Below the pieces are notes generated by a model. That model saw nothing but the letters and a program-made list of their open reading frames with translations. It was not told where the DNA came from and searched no databases. From the NCBI RefSeq assembly GCF_023897015.1, contig NZ_JAMHFY010000002.1, positions 248,001 to 312,000 of the forward strand: a DNA stretch of 64,000 nucleotides, given 5' to 3'. The DNA is from Desulfosporosinus nitroreducens. Its GTDB lineage: Bacteria > Bacillota > Desulfitobacteriia > Desulfitobacteriales > Desulfitobacteriaceae. Numbering within the stretch: the stretch's first letter is position 1; every line of letters starts with the position of its first letter. Positions 36,407-40,968 of this stretch are shown one piece after another. Made by a program: the position numbers and the translations under genes.

Positions 36407-37207
36407 CTAGTTGACTCGACGTGCCCCCAGATAACGGCTTGAATAATAACCATCACTAAGGCTTGTTGTACGCACACCACTGTTGGACGCATGTACGAAA
36501 TTTCCACCGCCGATATAAATGCCAACATGGGACGGTCCCTTTGCATACGTCGTGAAGAATACCAAATCACCCGTTTGCAGTTGATCTTTCTTTATAGGTG
36601 ACCCCACATTAAATTGCGCTTGAGATGTCCTTGGCAAGGATATGCCTGAACCCTTGAAAACATACTGAGTGTATCCCGAACAATCAAAGCCACTCTTGCT
36701 AGTTCCTCCAAAGACGTAAGGTACACCTTTTAGACTTAGAGCATTACTCACAAGAGTAGGGCTACTGGATCTAGATACCTGTTGTTTAGGCGGTTCTGTT
36801 GCCACTACTACTTTTCCTTGTACTGCGGCTACGACTTGAACAGGTTCTGGAACTTTTTTAGCTGTCTGTACTTTTTTTATTGTTTGTACATCATTGCTTG
36901 GTTGAGTTGTTTTCTCAGCGACTGCGACTGGCTCGCTCGGTATAGATACAGATTCTTCAGGTATAGAAGCACTTTCCACACTGACATTGGTGATCGGGCT
37001 TTCGACCCATTGCATTTGCTTGCGTACTGTCTGCGTATAACTTTCTGCCGATAAACTATCAGCAACAAGCAACAAGGGCTTCATAGGAGTACGAATAATC
37101 GTCGTACTGGGTTGAGCTGAAACTAAAGTAGGAAGGCTGCTTGCTAAAAGCAGGCCTGACAAAGCAACGCTTCCCAACCACTTGCACGTAGAAGAGGAAA
37201 CCGCCAA
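36407..37207 (-). CDS. Secreted NlpC/P60 (C40) cell-wall peptidase
   Basis: The 266-residue protein has a signal peptide (cleaved near SLPTLVSA), a low-complexity Val/Pro/Glu/Ser linker and a C-terminal NlpC/P60 domain. The catalytic Cys is in FDCSGY and the His in SHVGIYIGG, with a further His in FVHAS. It should hydrolyse peptidoglycan stem peptides. TTG 37207 is eight bases after GGTGG; GTG 37219 overlaps that site. A c-di-AMP riboswitch lies immediately upstream. Confidence 0.88.
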   Translation of the reverse strand: MAVSSSTCKWLGSVALSGLLLASSLPTLVSAQPSTTIIRTPMKPLLLVADSLSAESYTQTVRKQMQWVESPITNVSVESASIPEESVSIPSEPVAVAEKTTQPSNDVQTIKKVQTAKKVPEPVQVVAAVQGKVVVATEPPKQQVSRSSSPTLVSNALSLKGVPYVFGGTSKSGFDCSGYTQYVFKGSGISLPRTSQAQFNVGSPIKKDQLQTGDLVFFTTYAKGPSHVGIYIGGGNFVHASNSGVRTTSLSDGYYSSRYLGARRVN

Positions 37208-37221
37208 GAAAAAATCCACCT

Positions 37222-37340
37222 TTCTTAGCTTACGAGGTTAGTTGACGGATTCGGGCAGCAGGTGTAAGCCCTACACGTGAATAGACCACGTGATTCACCC
37301 CCATAATAATCCCCCGCTCCAAAGTACAGGATTTGGATTC
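37222..37340 (-). ncRNA. Cyclic di-AMP riboswitch (ydaO-yuaA type)
   Basis: The minus-strand leader carries the signature blocks of the ydaO aptamer in order: GGAGCGGGGGA, GGGGGTGAATC, TAGGG...CCTGC, CCGAATCCGTCA and CTAACCTCGTAAGC. It ends at the ribosome site of the NlpC/P60 gene. Such riboswitches reduce expression of wall hydrolases and osmotic genes when c-di-AMP is high. No separate T-tailed terminator is seen, so translational control is possible. Confidence 0.9.
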
Positions 37341-37721
37341 AGCTTTTACTATAATTAATACTATTCGAGACAAACCTAAAATGTCCTGCAAAATTCCTAA
37401 GGGAAAAAATTCCTCTCTGCGGAAAAATATCTATTCCAGTTATTATATGTTTTGAAATTTTCTAAGACCTAAATCAAGATATAGGGGTTAGTCTATCCAG
37501 CAGACGATAATCATGCCTGTAATCACTATCTGAATGGTCTCACTCAAATCCCTACAACAGTGTATCCCAATTTAAATCTGCCATCCAACCAATGTTTACC
37601 TAAGGAGAATTTTTTTAGTTCTTATCTGACAAGAGACTTGTTTCTTCTCCTTAAGTAACACAAGAAAAAAAACCTCCTAAGAGGTCTTTTAACATTACAA
37701 ATATTTAGCAGCAATTTCGAA
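37341..37721. other. Intergenic region upstream of the riboswitch
   Basis: About 380 bp. Near 37345-37365 lie AT-rich promoter-like hexamers for the riboswitch transcript. At 37601-37653 TAAGGAGAA and TTCTCCTTA close a loop that contains a smaller ACAAG/CTTGT hairpin. The terminator at 37663-37690 belongs to the UPF0210 gene. I see no gene. Confidence 0.5.
37663..37690 (-). terminator. Terminator of the UPF0210 gene
   Basis: AAAAGACCTC/GAGGTTTTTTTT with loop TTAG on the minus strand. Confidence 0.85.
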
Positions 37722-39089
37722 TTAGTTAGTAAGGCTTATAATTGGCGCAGGAATTCGACCTCCGCGATGCACAAACAATTTTGAAGAATAGGGATGTACA
37801 GCTATAACAGGTGCTCCTCCCAAAAGTCCTCCAAATTCTACTCGGTCTCCGGCTTTTTTACCAATCGCAGGAATCACTCGCACTGCCGTTGTTTTCTTAT
37901 TAATCATCCCTATGGCCGCCTCATCTGCTATGATGGCCGAAACCGTTTCTGCACTAACATCACCCGGCAACGCAATCATATCCAAACCGACTGAACAGAC
38001 ACAGGTCATTGCTTCCAACTTATCAAGGGTCAAAGCCCCTTCTTCAACAGCCCTTACCATTCCTGCATCCTCCGAAACAGGTATAAAAGCGCCGCTCAAC
38101 CCTCCAACATGAGACGAGGCCATCGCTCCCCCTTTTTTAACTGCATCATTGAGCAGAGCTAAGGCTGCGGTGGTTCCATGGGTTCCACATCGTTCAAGAC
38201 CCATATTCTCAAGTATTTCTGCTACACTGTCCCCAATTGCGGGAGTAGGGGCTAAGGAAAGATCTATAATTCCAAACGGAACATCTAAAGCCTTTGATGC
38301 CGCGCGCGCAATTAACTCTCCCATACGGGTAATTTTGAAGGCGGTTTGTTTTATCAAATTTGACAGTTCACTAAAATCTGCCTCAGGATATTTTTTTACA
38401 ACCTTTGCGACAACCCCTGGGCCGCTGACACCAACGTTAATAACTGTATCTGGTTCGCCTACACCATGGAAAGCACCCGCCATGAAAGGGTTATCTTCTG
38501 GCGCATTACAAAATACCACTAACTTAGCAGCTGCAATCCCGTCATTGTCTGAAGTGAGTTGAGCAGACTTTAGAATTACATTGCCCATTTTAAGTACCGC
38601 ATCCATGTTAATTCCAGCTTTTGTTGTTCCGATATTCACTGAAGAACAGACAAATTCCGTCTCACTAAGTGCTTGTGGTATAGCATCTATAAGTGCCAAA
38701 TCTCCTGAAGTAAATCCTTTTTGAACTAGTGCAGAAAAACCGCCGACGAAATTAATTCCAATCTCGCGGGCAGCCCGGTTCAATGTCTTAGCAATCCGTA
38801 CCATTTCATCCACATTCATTTGTGCTGCTGCGATCGCTATGGGGGTAACAGAAACCCGTTTATTTATAATGGGAATCCCATAACGTGCCGAGATTTGCTC
38901 GCCAACTTCAACTAATCTCCCTGCATTTTTGGTAATCTTATCATAGATTTTCTTTTCCATCTTGCCAATATCATCGGAGCTACAATCAAGCAGACTAATT
39001 CCCATTGTAATAGTCCGAATATCAAGGTTTTCCTTATGGATCATATTAATTGTTTGTTGTATTTCTTCTCGTGCGAATGTGATTGTCAT
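37722..39089 (-). CDS. UPF0210 (PFL/DUF711) family protein
   Basis: The 455-residue protein matches UPF0210 throughout: [64 protein letters not shown]-like [14 protein letters not shown] and the C-terminal [13 protein letters not shown]. The fold is related to glycyl-radical enzymes, but the reaction is unknown. It is nearly always paired with an ACT-domain protein, as here, 52 bp upstream. Confidence 0.92.
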
Positions 39090-39141: not shown

Positions 39142-39435
39142 TTAGATACGGTGCATAAACTTAAAAATATCTTCGTGTTGAACCTTTACCTGTAACCCTT
39201 TGTTGTCCCCCTCTTGTTCCAGGGTGCTTGCTAATACGTCAAGCTTTAATGCAGATGGCTCTAAGTCGACGACCATGATCATTGTGAAAAATTCATTTAA
39301 TATTGTCTGACTAATATCTAGAATATTTACGCGATATTCAGCAAGACGCCCGGAAACCCAAGCAATAATTCCAATCTGATCACGCCCTATTACAGTTATA
39401 ATTGCGTGGTTAGATTCTTCTCGTGGCATAGTCAT
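39142..39435 (-). CDS. ACT-domain protein (UPF0237)
   Basis: The 97-residue single ACT domain (AIITVIGRDQIGIIAWVSGRLAEYRVNILDISQTIL) probably senses an amino acid or similar ligand. ATG 39435 follows GGGAGG; an in-frame extension to 39573 has no ribosome site and is not protein-like. It is the standard partner of the UPF0210 gene downstream. Confidence 0.9.
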   Translation of the reverse strand: MTMPREESNHAIITVIGRDQIGIIAWVSGRLAEYRVNILDISQTILNEFFTMIMVVDLEPSALKLDVLASTLEQEGDNKGLQVKVQHEDIFKFMHRI

Positions 39436-39615: not shown

Positions 39616-39646
39616 CTAAAAAAGAGAGCTCACAGAGCTCTCTTTT
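39616..39646. terminator. Bidirectional terminator after the selenoprotein gene
   Basis: AAAAGAGAGCTC/GAGCTCTCTTTT arms with a short loop; T runs on both strands. Confidence 0.9.
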
Positions 39647-39655
39647 ACCGAACAA

Positions 39656-39982
39656 TTACGAACAGCTTCCGCCGCAACTATCTCCACAACCACCACCGGA
39701 CTTCGCCGTTCGAATTTCGAATCCACCACCATTGTTAGATTCAATAAAATCGACGACTGCCCCTTCTAAGTGGGTGGTAAGTTTTTTATCCGTTAGAATA
39801 GAAACACCATGCTCAACATCAAGAACATCTTCATCCGTTTTTGACTCTTCCAGAGTCATGCCGAAATTCGGCCCACCTCAGCCAATACCTACAAGATAAA
39901 GGCGAAGAAATGCATTTTCTTTATTTTGATTCTTAAGCACTTCTTTAACTTTTTGGGCAGCTATTTCAGTAATATTAACCAT
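39656..39982 (-). CDS. HesB/IscA-like selenoprotein with in-frame UGA (Sec35)
   Basis: ATG 39982 follows AAGGAGTG. The frame reads 34 codons to TGA (39880-39878), then 73 more in the same frame to a normal stop at 39656. The protein is a HesB/IscA-type fold (LRLYLVGIG-U-GGPNFGMTLEES...). The TGA takes the place of the first conserved metal-binding Cys. Both halves are needed for one domain, so read-through as selenocysteine is likelier than two genes. A UGACUC-UGGAA-GAGUCA hairpin (39858-39842) with G in its loop lies 25 nt after the UGA, as a bacterial SECIS should. The C-terminus is GGGCGDSCGGSCS. HesB-like selenoproteins are known in Sec-using anaerobes. Confidence 0.88.
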
Positions 39983-40074
39983 TATCTTCACTCCTTTTTA
40001 ATCCAATTAATTCTTAATATACCATACTTCTAGTTTTTTTAAAAGTATCGCATAAATATAACTCTTATTGATTA

Positions 40075-40314
40075 TTATACTTCTTTGCCGTCTCCATTTG
40101 GTTGGAAATCTTTCCAAAGACGACGAACTTCAACTTCTATACTCGCCGGGAGATCCTGGGATAATTCTTGCCATTGTCTTAGTTCCCCTTGAATCGTTTG
40201 TACCCAATTTTGTTCTTTTGGCCAGACAATAAAGGTTTTCGGTTCTGGAACTAATAAAGTTCGAACGAGTCCCAGAAAAACAAGGAGAGTTAACAGTCGC
40301 CAAAACCAACGCAT
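40075..40314 (-). CDS. Small membrane-anchored hypothetical protein
   Basis: The 79-residue protein has a basic start, an N-terminal hydrophobic helix (about residues 4-22) and a charged, Trp-rich remainder (FIVWPKEQNWVQTIQGELRQWQEL). No family is recognised. It lies 24 bp downstream of the HD hydrolase gene and is probably co-transcribed with it. Confidence 0.55.
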   Translation of the reverse strand: MRWFWRLLTLLVFLGLVRTLLVPEPKTFIVWPKEQNWVQTIQGELRQWQELSQDLPASIEVEVRRLWKDFQPNGDGKEV

Positions 40315-40338: not shown

Positions 40339-40968
40339 TTATATAGTGTCAGCTTGTCCAGAATCAGATAATTTAAGTCTTTCGGCACGTAATTGTTGCC
40401 AAAATCCTTCCATATAAAGAAATAATGGATCAAAATATGCTTTAGCCGACTGCGTGAATAAGTGATCTCTGTAGCTGCAGATTCTCTCATGGTAAAATTT
40501 CTCACAGGAGTTTTCTCCTACTAAAGTCCACCCTTGGACTCCAGCCCAAGTAAACAAACGTCCCAACCCGATTGCACCTACAAAATCTAATTTATCAGCA
40601 TCATACAGAATCTTCGCTTCAAGGGTCTTCGGTTCATGCCCCGCCTCACGAGAATGAGAAATAATTGCTTCTTTAACTTGTTTGACTATCCCGTCAGAAT
40701 AACCGTTTTTTTGCAAGATATTCACGGCTAACCCAGCACTGCTTTCTGCATGAGTTTTTTCCACTGCACCAGAACGACCAATATCATGGAGAAGTGCAGC
40801 CAATTCAATGACAATTATATCTGCGCCTTCTTCCAGAGCCAGTTTTCTGCCCCACTCTCTAACTCTCAAAGCATGTTCTAAATCGTGGGCACGATCTTTC
40901 CGAGCGTAGAATCCTTGCGCAACTTGAATAATCTGTTGCAAGGCATCTTGTGATAAAACATCAGTCAT
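40339..40968 (-). CDS. HD-domain phosphohydrolase
   Basis: The 209-residue protein has the HD metal-binding set: HDLEHALRV, LLHDIGR, ISHSRE and DADKLDFVGA. These fit the YedJ-like class of HD phosphohydrolases acting on nucleotides; the true substrate is unknown. The start follows GGGGGG. Confidence 0.85.
   Translation of the reverse strand: MTDVLSQDALQQIIQVAQGFYARKDRAHDLEHALRVREWGRKLALEEGADIIVIELAALLHDIGRSGAVEKTHAESSAGLAVNILQKNGYSDGIVKQVKEAIISHSREAGHEPKTLEAKILYDADKLDFVGAIGLGRLFTWAGVQGWTLVGENSCEKFYHERICSYRDHLFTQSAKAYFDPLFLYMEGFWQQLRAERLKLSDSGQADTI

Follow-up and report, generated by a model that had tools for sequence, protein, structure and literature searches.

The minus strand of the window, by which we mean the whole 64-kb stretch of DNA that was analysed, carries a HesB/IscA-like gene with an in-frame UGA codon, and from the sequence evidence we consider it highly probable that this gene encodes a selenoprotein and that the UGA is decoded as selenocysteine 35 (Sec35). 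With the TGA taken as a residue, the frame yields a protein of 108 amino acids that bears U35 inside the motif GIGUGGPNFG and ends in the tail GGGCGDSCGGSCS, where the Cys-rich motif CGDSCGGSC provides Cys99, Cys103 and Cys107 as candidate ligands. As proposed in a sequence-only reading of the locus, the frame runs through the TGA from a proper start, with ATG, AAGGAG, TGA and stop codon all present, and domain sequence lies on both sides of the TGA, where a match to TIGR00049 (71.2 bits, cut-off 58.8) spans residues 2–104. The same reading expected standard gene calling to truncate the gene to 67 residues; indeed, a gene caller without readthrough returns 67 aa from an ATG at position 39859, located 18 nt past the UGA. 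Ordinary annotation thus cuts the gene short, and reading it with Sec corrects the annotation.

A scan of the 64-kb window for frames with one internal TGA gave 49 candidates, 11 of which passed an overlap filter, and the HesB/IscA-like gene was, as judged by eye, the only convincing one. The AAGGAG upstream of the ATG is Shine-Dalgarno-like by direct reading, and a promoter scan returned one site against a shuffle mean of 1.4, that is, no excess. Directly 3′ of the stop codon, the region 39655–39612 folds with −17.5 kcal/mol (z −4.80, 0/200 shuffles as good), and transcription probably ends here, because a strong hairpin and a T-run follow the stop codon; the hairpin was unreported in the consensus scan. 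The coordinates of the gene, its signals and its conserved neighbours are collected in Table 1.

Table 1. Features of the selenoprotein locus, in positions of the window.
Feature	Position	Strand	Remarks
DUF711 (PF05167) protein, downstream	37722..39089	(-)	conserved neighbourhood
ACT-domain protein, downstream	39142..39435	(-)	conserved neighbourhood; start codon tentative
Terminator-like hairpin and T-run	39618..39646	(-)	directly 3′ of stop codon
HesB/IscA-like selenoprotein gene (very probable)	39656..39982	(-)	108 aa with Sec35, plus stop TAA; start ATG 39982-39980, in-frame TGA 39880-39878, stop 39658-39656
SECIS apical hairpin UGACUC-UGGAA-GAGUCA	39842..39858	(-)	UGACUC 39858-39853, UGGAA 39852-39848, GAGUCA 39847-39842; G in second loop position
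Possible lower helix holding the UGA	39860..39882	(-)	39882-39875 with 39867-39860, below apical hairpin
In-frame UGA, very probably selenocysteine 35	39878..39880	(-)	first conserved Cys of HesB/IscA fold
Shine-Dalgarno-like AAGGAG	39991..39996	(-)	8 nt upstream of ATG
79-aa protein, upstream	40075..40314	(-)	no Pfam family; conserved neighbourhood
HD-domain protein, upstream	40339..40968	(-)	conserved neighbourhood

The stem of the apical hairpin starts at nucleotide 20 after the UGA and the hairpin spans nucleotides 20–36 behind it, leaving a spacer between the UGA and the apical loop of 25 nt with a 6-bp stem or 26 nt with 7 bp. A hairpin with a G in its loop had been placed 25 nt downstream of the UGA; this distance holds for the loop, whereas the stem itself is closer, at nucleotide 20. 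Bacterial SECIS constraints are set out in the Fig. 2 legend of PMC13188914 as an apical loop of 3–9 nt on an upper stem of 4–16 bp, a G at loop place 1 or 2, a spacer of 16–37 nt and a minimum free energy of at most −7.5 kcal/mol and, checked by hand, the hairpin lies within all four. It can be drawn as a 3-nt loop on 7 bp or as a 5-nt loop on 6 bp, the loop accordingly reading GGA or UGGAA, and its energy is −7.7 kcal/mol for a 25-nt hairpin piece (z −3.34, 1/200 shuffles as good) and −16.4 kcal/mol for the 50-nt UGA region (z −3.06, 1/200 shuffles as good).

Homologues were sought in 45 genomes, 29 of which (the window's genome and 28 others) are grouped in one genus, and matches were obtained in 41. 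After two C-terminal fragments (G023:C112 and G033:C247) had been dropped, 74 full-length copies were left, with UGA at position 35 in 43, Cys in 30 and Ser in one, such that Cys or Sec occupies in 73 of 74 homologues the place that the sequence-only reading had assigned to the first conserved Cys. The UGA copies, including that of the window, are distributed over 38 genomes of the family, a recurrence far beyond chance, and two genomes besides the window's carry the UGA gene at 99% identity; the closest named organisms among the matches listed are Desulfosporosinus sp. SRJS8 and D. lacus (99%), the latter having the same UGA gene. In 17 of the 45 genomes a UGA copy coexists with a Cys copy, and three genomes have matches without a UGA copy (G006, G036 and G037), among which G006 (82% complete) has selB and tRNA-Sec with only a Cys copy found. 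In the Ser copy (L066/L156, genome G022), which reads ESSDGPNFG at position 35, the first ligand is lost because Ser replaces Cys/Sec.

Beyond the family, a phylum-wide search gave matches in 82 of 398 genomes, and the best loci read outside the family (n=23) comprise 17 with UGA and 6 with Cys; the 80 loci among the matches listed divide into 22 UGA, 57 Cys and 1 Ser. A quick tree of 107 rows contains at least eight Sec/Cys state changes, to which no direction is assigned because the tree leaves 39 of its 100 inner branches unresolved. The 12 canonical rows used as outgroup are separated from the HesB-like rows with 98% SH-aLRT, and L165 falls among the HesB-like rows.

The codons that encode the hairpin are frozen only where position 35 is UGA. 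In the main group of UGA copies (39 of the 43, with the distant L087–L090 left out), codons 43, 44 and 46 are ACT, CTG and GAG in 39/39 copies each, the codons just behind the hairpin vary, and in the non-UGA copies the same hairpin codons vary as well. Over 55 conserved codons, the one-codon mean of these UGA copies is 0.93 for the 10 conserved codons within 36–47 versus 0.63 for the 45 others (Mann-Whitney p 5.7e-6), whereas the 30 Cys copies (Ser copy left out) exhibit no freezing, with 0.60 versus 0.65 (p 0.79); shared descent inflates these p-values, and the controls are the remainder of the gene and the Cys copies. This pattern bears directly on whether the UGA could be a true stop, in a pseudogene, through a sequencing error or between two small genes. 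Such a reading could draw on the separate 67-aa frame of the gene caller, with its ATG 18 nt after the UGA; however, the same UGA recurs in 43 copies from 38 genomes, including the two at 99% identity, the frame is conserved on both sides, and the hairpin codons are frozen only in UGA copies. We therefore reject pseudogene, sequencing error and split gene on the strength of the 43 UGA copies and their codon freezing, and hold a true stop to be scarcely credible.

The pairing of the apical stem points in the same direction as selenocysteine decoding, with 98.1% of cells paired in the 27 distinct rows among the 43 UGA copies and 76.1% in the 30 distinct rows among the 31 non-UGA (Cys/Ser) copies. 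The UGA rows contain five double-sided compensatory cells in two pairs, with A-U replacing G-C in four rows and G-C replacing A-U in one; 0/500 shuffles reach five cells and 6/500 reach two pairs, and as the five cells come from four related genes, the compensatory events themselves are few (about two). Further pair types show no excess in the UGA rows, where 500/500 shuffles reach the count, the covariation in the 30 distinct Cys/Ser rows is not above that of shuffles, and the outermost stem pair is broken in 3 of the 27 distinct UGA rows. The central GGA of the loop is kept in all 43 UGA copies, and the six outer pairs are intact in 38 of them. Since these six pairs are also kept in 11 of the 31 non-UGA copies, as remnants or through shared coding, the stem alone fails to separate UGA from non-UGA copies. 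Below the apical hairpin, RNAalifold also pairs the possible lower helix around the UGA. The case for this helix is weak, since it is kept mainly by one-sided changes and its covariation does not exceed that of shuffles (58/500); a small alternative hairpin, GCCGA/UCGGC, competes for its 3′ strand, and either of two alternative pairings may fit this region.

All four genes whose presence had been suggested as a check, selA, selB, selC and selD, are found in the genome of the window, and neither of the two outcomes that were to speak against a selenoprotein, a genome without selB/selC or homologues that never carry Cys/Sec, came true. The genome has two selA, two selB matches above cut-off and two selD, both of which contain an in-frame TGA within a GU[GA]CK site. 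Three Infernal matches to tRNA-Sec exceed the gathering score, two of which are tRNA-Sec (anticodon TCA) by ARAGORN and the third tRNA-Ser. This machinery, together with the SECIS-conforming hairpin, argues against the UGA being read without selenium as another residue, by Trp or a near-cognate tRNA, as does the observation that Trp occurs at position 35 in 0 of the 31 non-UGA copies (30 Cys, 1 Ser). On the latter ground we reject UGA-as-Trp, and consider any other residue highly improbable.

Across the family, a selB or a tRNA-Sec match at strict thresholds (selB E <= 1e-75; tRNA-Sec E <= 1e-9) accompanies the UGA copy in 37 of 38 genomes. At these thresholds, part of the machinery goes undetected in five of the 38, whose completeness is 79–99%: G025 gives no selB match, G012, G032 and G033 give no tRNA-Sec match, and G026 (79% complete) has a UGA copy with neither match.

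The Sec-decoding genes of the window's genome (G000) form two sets, L091 (G000:C95:88000-107000) and L092 (G000:C66:44001-64000). The C95 set comprises selA, the alpha and beta subunits of glycine/sarcosine/betaine reductase component C, selenoprotein A (with in-frame TGA), thioredoxin, thioredoxin reductase, selB and tRNA-Sec, and has a G+C of 0.479; the selB/tRNA-Sec pair on C66 has a G+C of 0.40, the same as the window. We take the C66 pair for the native set, and infer that the selA-selB-selC set of the glycine-reductase island on C95 looks horizontally acquired. The two SelBs share 36% identity, and the two tRNA-Sec agree in 63 of 100 alignment columns. Among the 45 genomes, a pair of selB matches is confined to G000, G017 and G027; a pair of tRNA-Sec is also present in G003 and G004. 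In addition, a selD containing an in-frame TGA adjoins selA at G000:C55:173868-176455, and the second such selD lies on the window's contig, outside the window (C22:28795-29712). For D. orientis, a passage of PMC5330540 lists two tRNA-Sec and 13 selenoproteins.

The order HD – 79 aa – HesB – ACT – DUF711 marks 37 copies of the locus, namely that of the window and 36 others for which one or more neighbours were matched. Position 35 is UGA in 35 of them and Cys in two (G036 and G037; completeness 87 and 91%), and in these two genomes neither selB (E <= 1e-75) nor tRNA-Sec (E <= 1e-9) was detected. A single syntenic locus thus offers a clean natural comparison of Sec with Cys. The shared HD, ACT and DUF711 neighbours provide no link to Fe-S assembly. 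Elsewhere, the Cys HesB duplicates L047, L055 and L057 stand right behind long frames resembling, by eye, formate dehydrogenase alpha, and L051 lies downstream of what we take to be a SelD-like frame with Cys for Sec. We also note a c-di-AMP riboswitch (RF00379, 89.9 bits) at 37212-37354 (-), just upstream of the frame 36407-37219 (-).

The protein belongs to the HesB/IscA domain by PF01521 (40 bits, cut-off 26.3), by TIGR00049 and by fold search. A fold model built from 79 sequences, the window protein and 78 of the 80 listed loci (L128 and L171 left out), has a mean pLDDT of 83, with the tail 96–108 under 50. At E <= 0.001 the fold search returned eight PDB chains, exclusively of HesB/IscA/SufA type, including HI1723, E. 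coli IscA, IscA with a [2Fe-2S] cluster, AQ_1857 and SufA. The solved relatives found by sequence are HI1723, AQ_1857, IscA and SufA, and U35 aligns to Cys in the three for which alignments are shown.

During translation, SelB would bind the hairpin (nucleotides 20–36 past the UGA) and deliver Sec-tRNA(Sec), upon which the ribosome, rather than terminating, would insert selenocysteine as residue 35, a step that the sequence strongly supports. The product is predicted to fold as a HesB/IscA domain, within which the selenolate of Sec35 would take over as ligand from the first of three cluster-binding Cys, and the remaining ligands would be supplied by Cys99/Cys103(/Cys107) of the glycine-rich tail. 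In the A-type family, the cluster is bound by one N-terminal and two C-terminal Cys, as described in part of PMC7144353. That the protein holds and passes on an Fe-S cluster or iron by means of a Sec35 selenolate ligand is a prediction to which we give an even chance. We favour such Fe-S or iron handling because Sec35 occupies the place of the first ligand Cys and because Cys99 and Cys103 are kept, each in at least 90% of the 73 rows of the homologue alignment (73 of 74 copies, L041 left out). The ligand reading is limited by the low pLDDT (under 50) of the Cys-rich tail and by L087–L090, distant UGA copies from the same bacterial family that have a single tail Cys.

The HesB fold could instead be a mere frame for a selenoprotein engaged in selenol redox chemistry or in the binding of a metal or metalloid, which we regard as possible, if somewhat improbable. 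Most uncharacterised selenoproteins are expected to be redox proteins, and some to bind metals, according to a passage of PMC13188914, and the three tail Cys could pair with Sec35. However, the UxGP motif, as worded in the same source, is no UxxC redox pair, both the fold and the position of the Sec match the cluster-binding Cys of A-type proteins, and two of the tail Cys are conserved as described above.

With Fe-S or iron handling as the favoured reading, the repertoire of the genome becomes relevant. A PF01521 search and a second search of the window's genome revealed no further HesB/IscA-type gene; the statement that this is the only one found rests on both, because PF01521 misses known copies, for example in G008, where a homologue search finds two and PF01521 none. 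Pro38 is present in 74/74 full-length matches (41 of 45 genomes), and among these 74 no canonical A-type carrier was seen. We suggest, as an unlikely and speculative extension, that HesB-like proteins with Sec/Cys and Pro38 took over the role of A-type carriers in Desulfosporosinus and its family. If this were true, selenium would be needed for all or one branch of Fe-S maturation, and other species would have in their Cys duplicates a back-up that works without selenium. A selenoprotein alone is nothing unusual in an anaerobe that uses selenium; a genome in which the Sec form is the sole HesB/IscA-type protein detected is well suited to testing the part of selenium in Fe-S handling.

HesB-like selenoproteins were, as stated in the sequence-only reading, already known: descriptions date back to the mid-2000s, and 75Se labelling has been reported for one archaeal member. 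Since the family had been described, the window gene is a further member of it. Passages of PMC1242214 and PMC1914089 count HesB among the known selenoproteins, and PMC1794560 lists 11 HesB-like selenoproteins and two Sec-to-Cys events, one of its figures depicting a Cys form with a remnant SECIS in Desulfitobacterium hafniense. Sections of PMC13188914 and PMC9312934 place the family under TIGR01911. In the former, the HesB-like motif is written UxGP; the window protein bears it as UGGP at 35–38 with the UGA at the first conserved Cys. The window's Desulfosporosinus gene was not found by name in the portions of the literature covered, which included work on Desulfosporosinus together with selenocysteine. 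A 2009 survey of A-type carriers (PMC2682760), in the portion concerned, set aside truncated PF01521 proteins, for example in Firmicutes; some of these may, at a guess, be Sec genes that annotation had cut at the UGA.

With the HesB-like selenoproteins of TIGR01911 (HesB_rel_seleno), the window protein shares the HesB/IscA domain, Sec at the first conserved Cys, UGGP, a downstream SECIS and Cys-containing relatives. It nevertheless scores 52.6 bits, below the curated cut-off of 66.35, as do ten members tested apart, both Sec and Cys (35.5–54.0), and its tail reads CGDSCGGSC, whereas L087–L090 end in a single Cys. Similarly, NF038090 (IscA_HesB_Se) aligns over residues 1–100 with 65.6 bits, yet below its curated cut-off of 85, under which the ten members also remain. 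The HesB-like selenoprotein of M. maripaludis, likened here by description, is of the same kind and, according to passages of PMC11097638, was recognised through 75Se labelling and mutagenesis; these passages call its function "not clear" and mention, as an unpublished observation, that the mutant still fixes nitrogen. That member is archaeal, and its SECIS and Sec machinery thus differ, according to part of PMC13188914. The A-type carriers IscA, SufA and ErpA (PF01521) have the same fold and the same places for cluster-ligand Cys, the first of which is taken by Sec in the window protein. They differ from it at position 38, which is Pro in the window protein but mostly F, L, M or Y in the canonical rows fetched, and in the tail, which is CxxxCxxxC rather than the mostly CGCG/CACG of canonical carriers. 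With Sec in place of the first of three Cys and the non-CGCG tail CGDSCGGSC, the window protein is not a canonical member, and may thus act in a carrier-like manner without belonging to the canonical A-type carriers.
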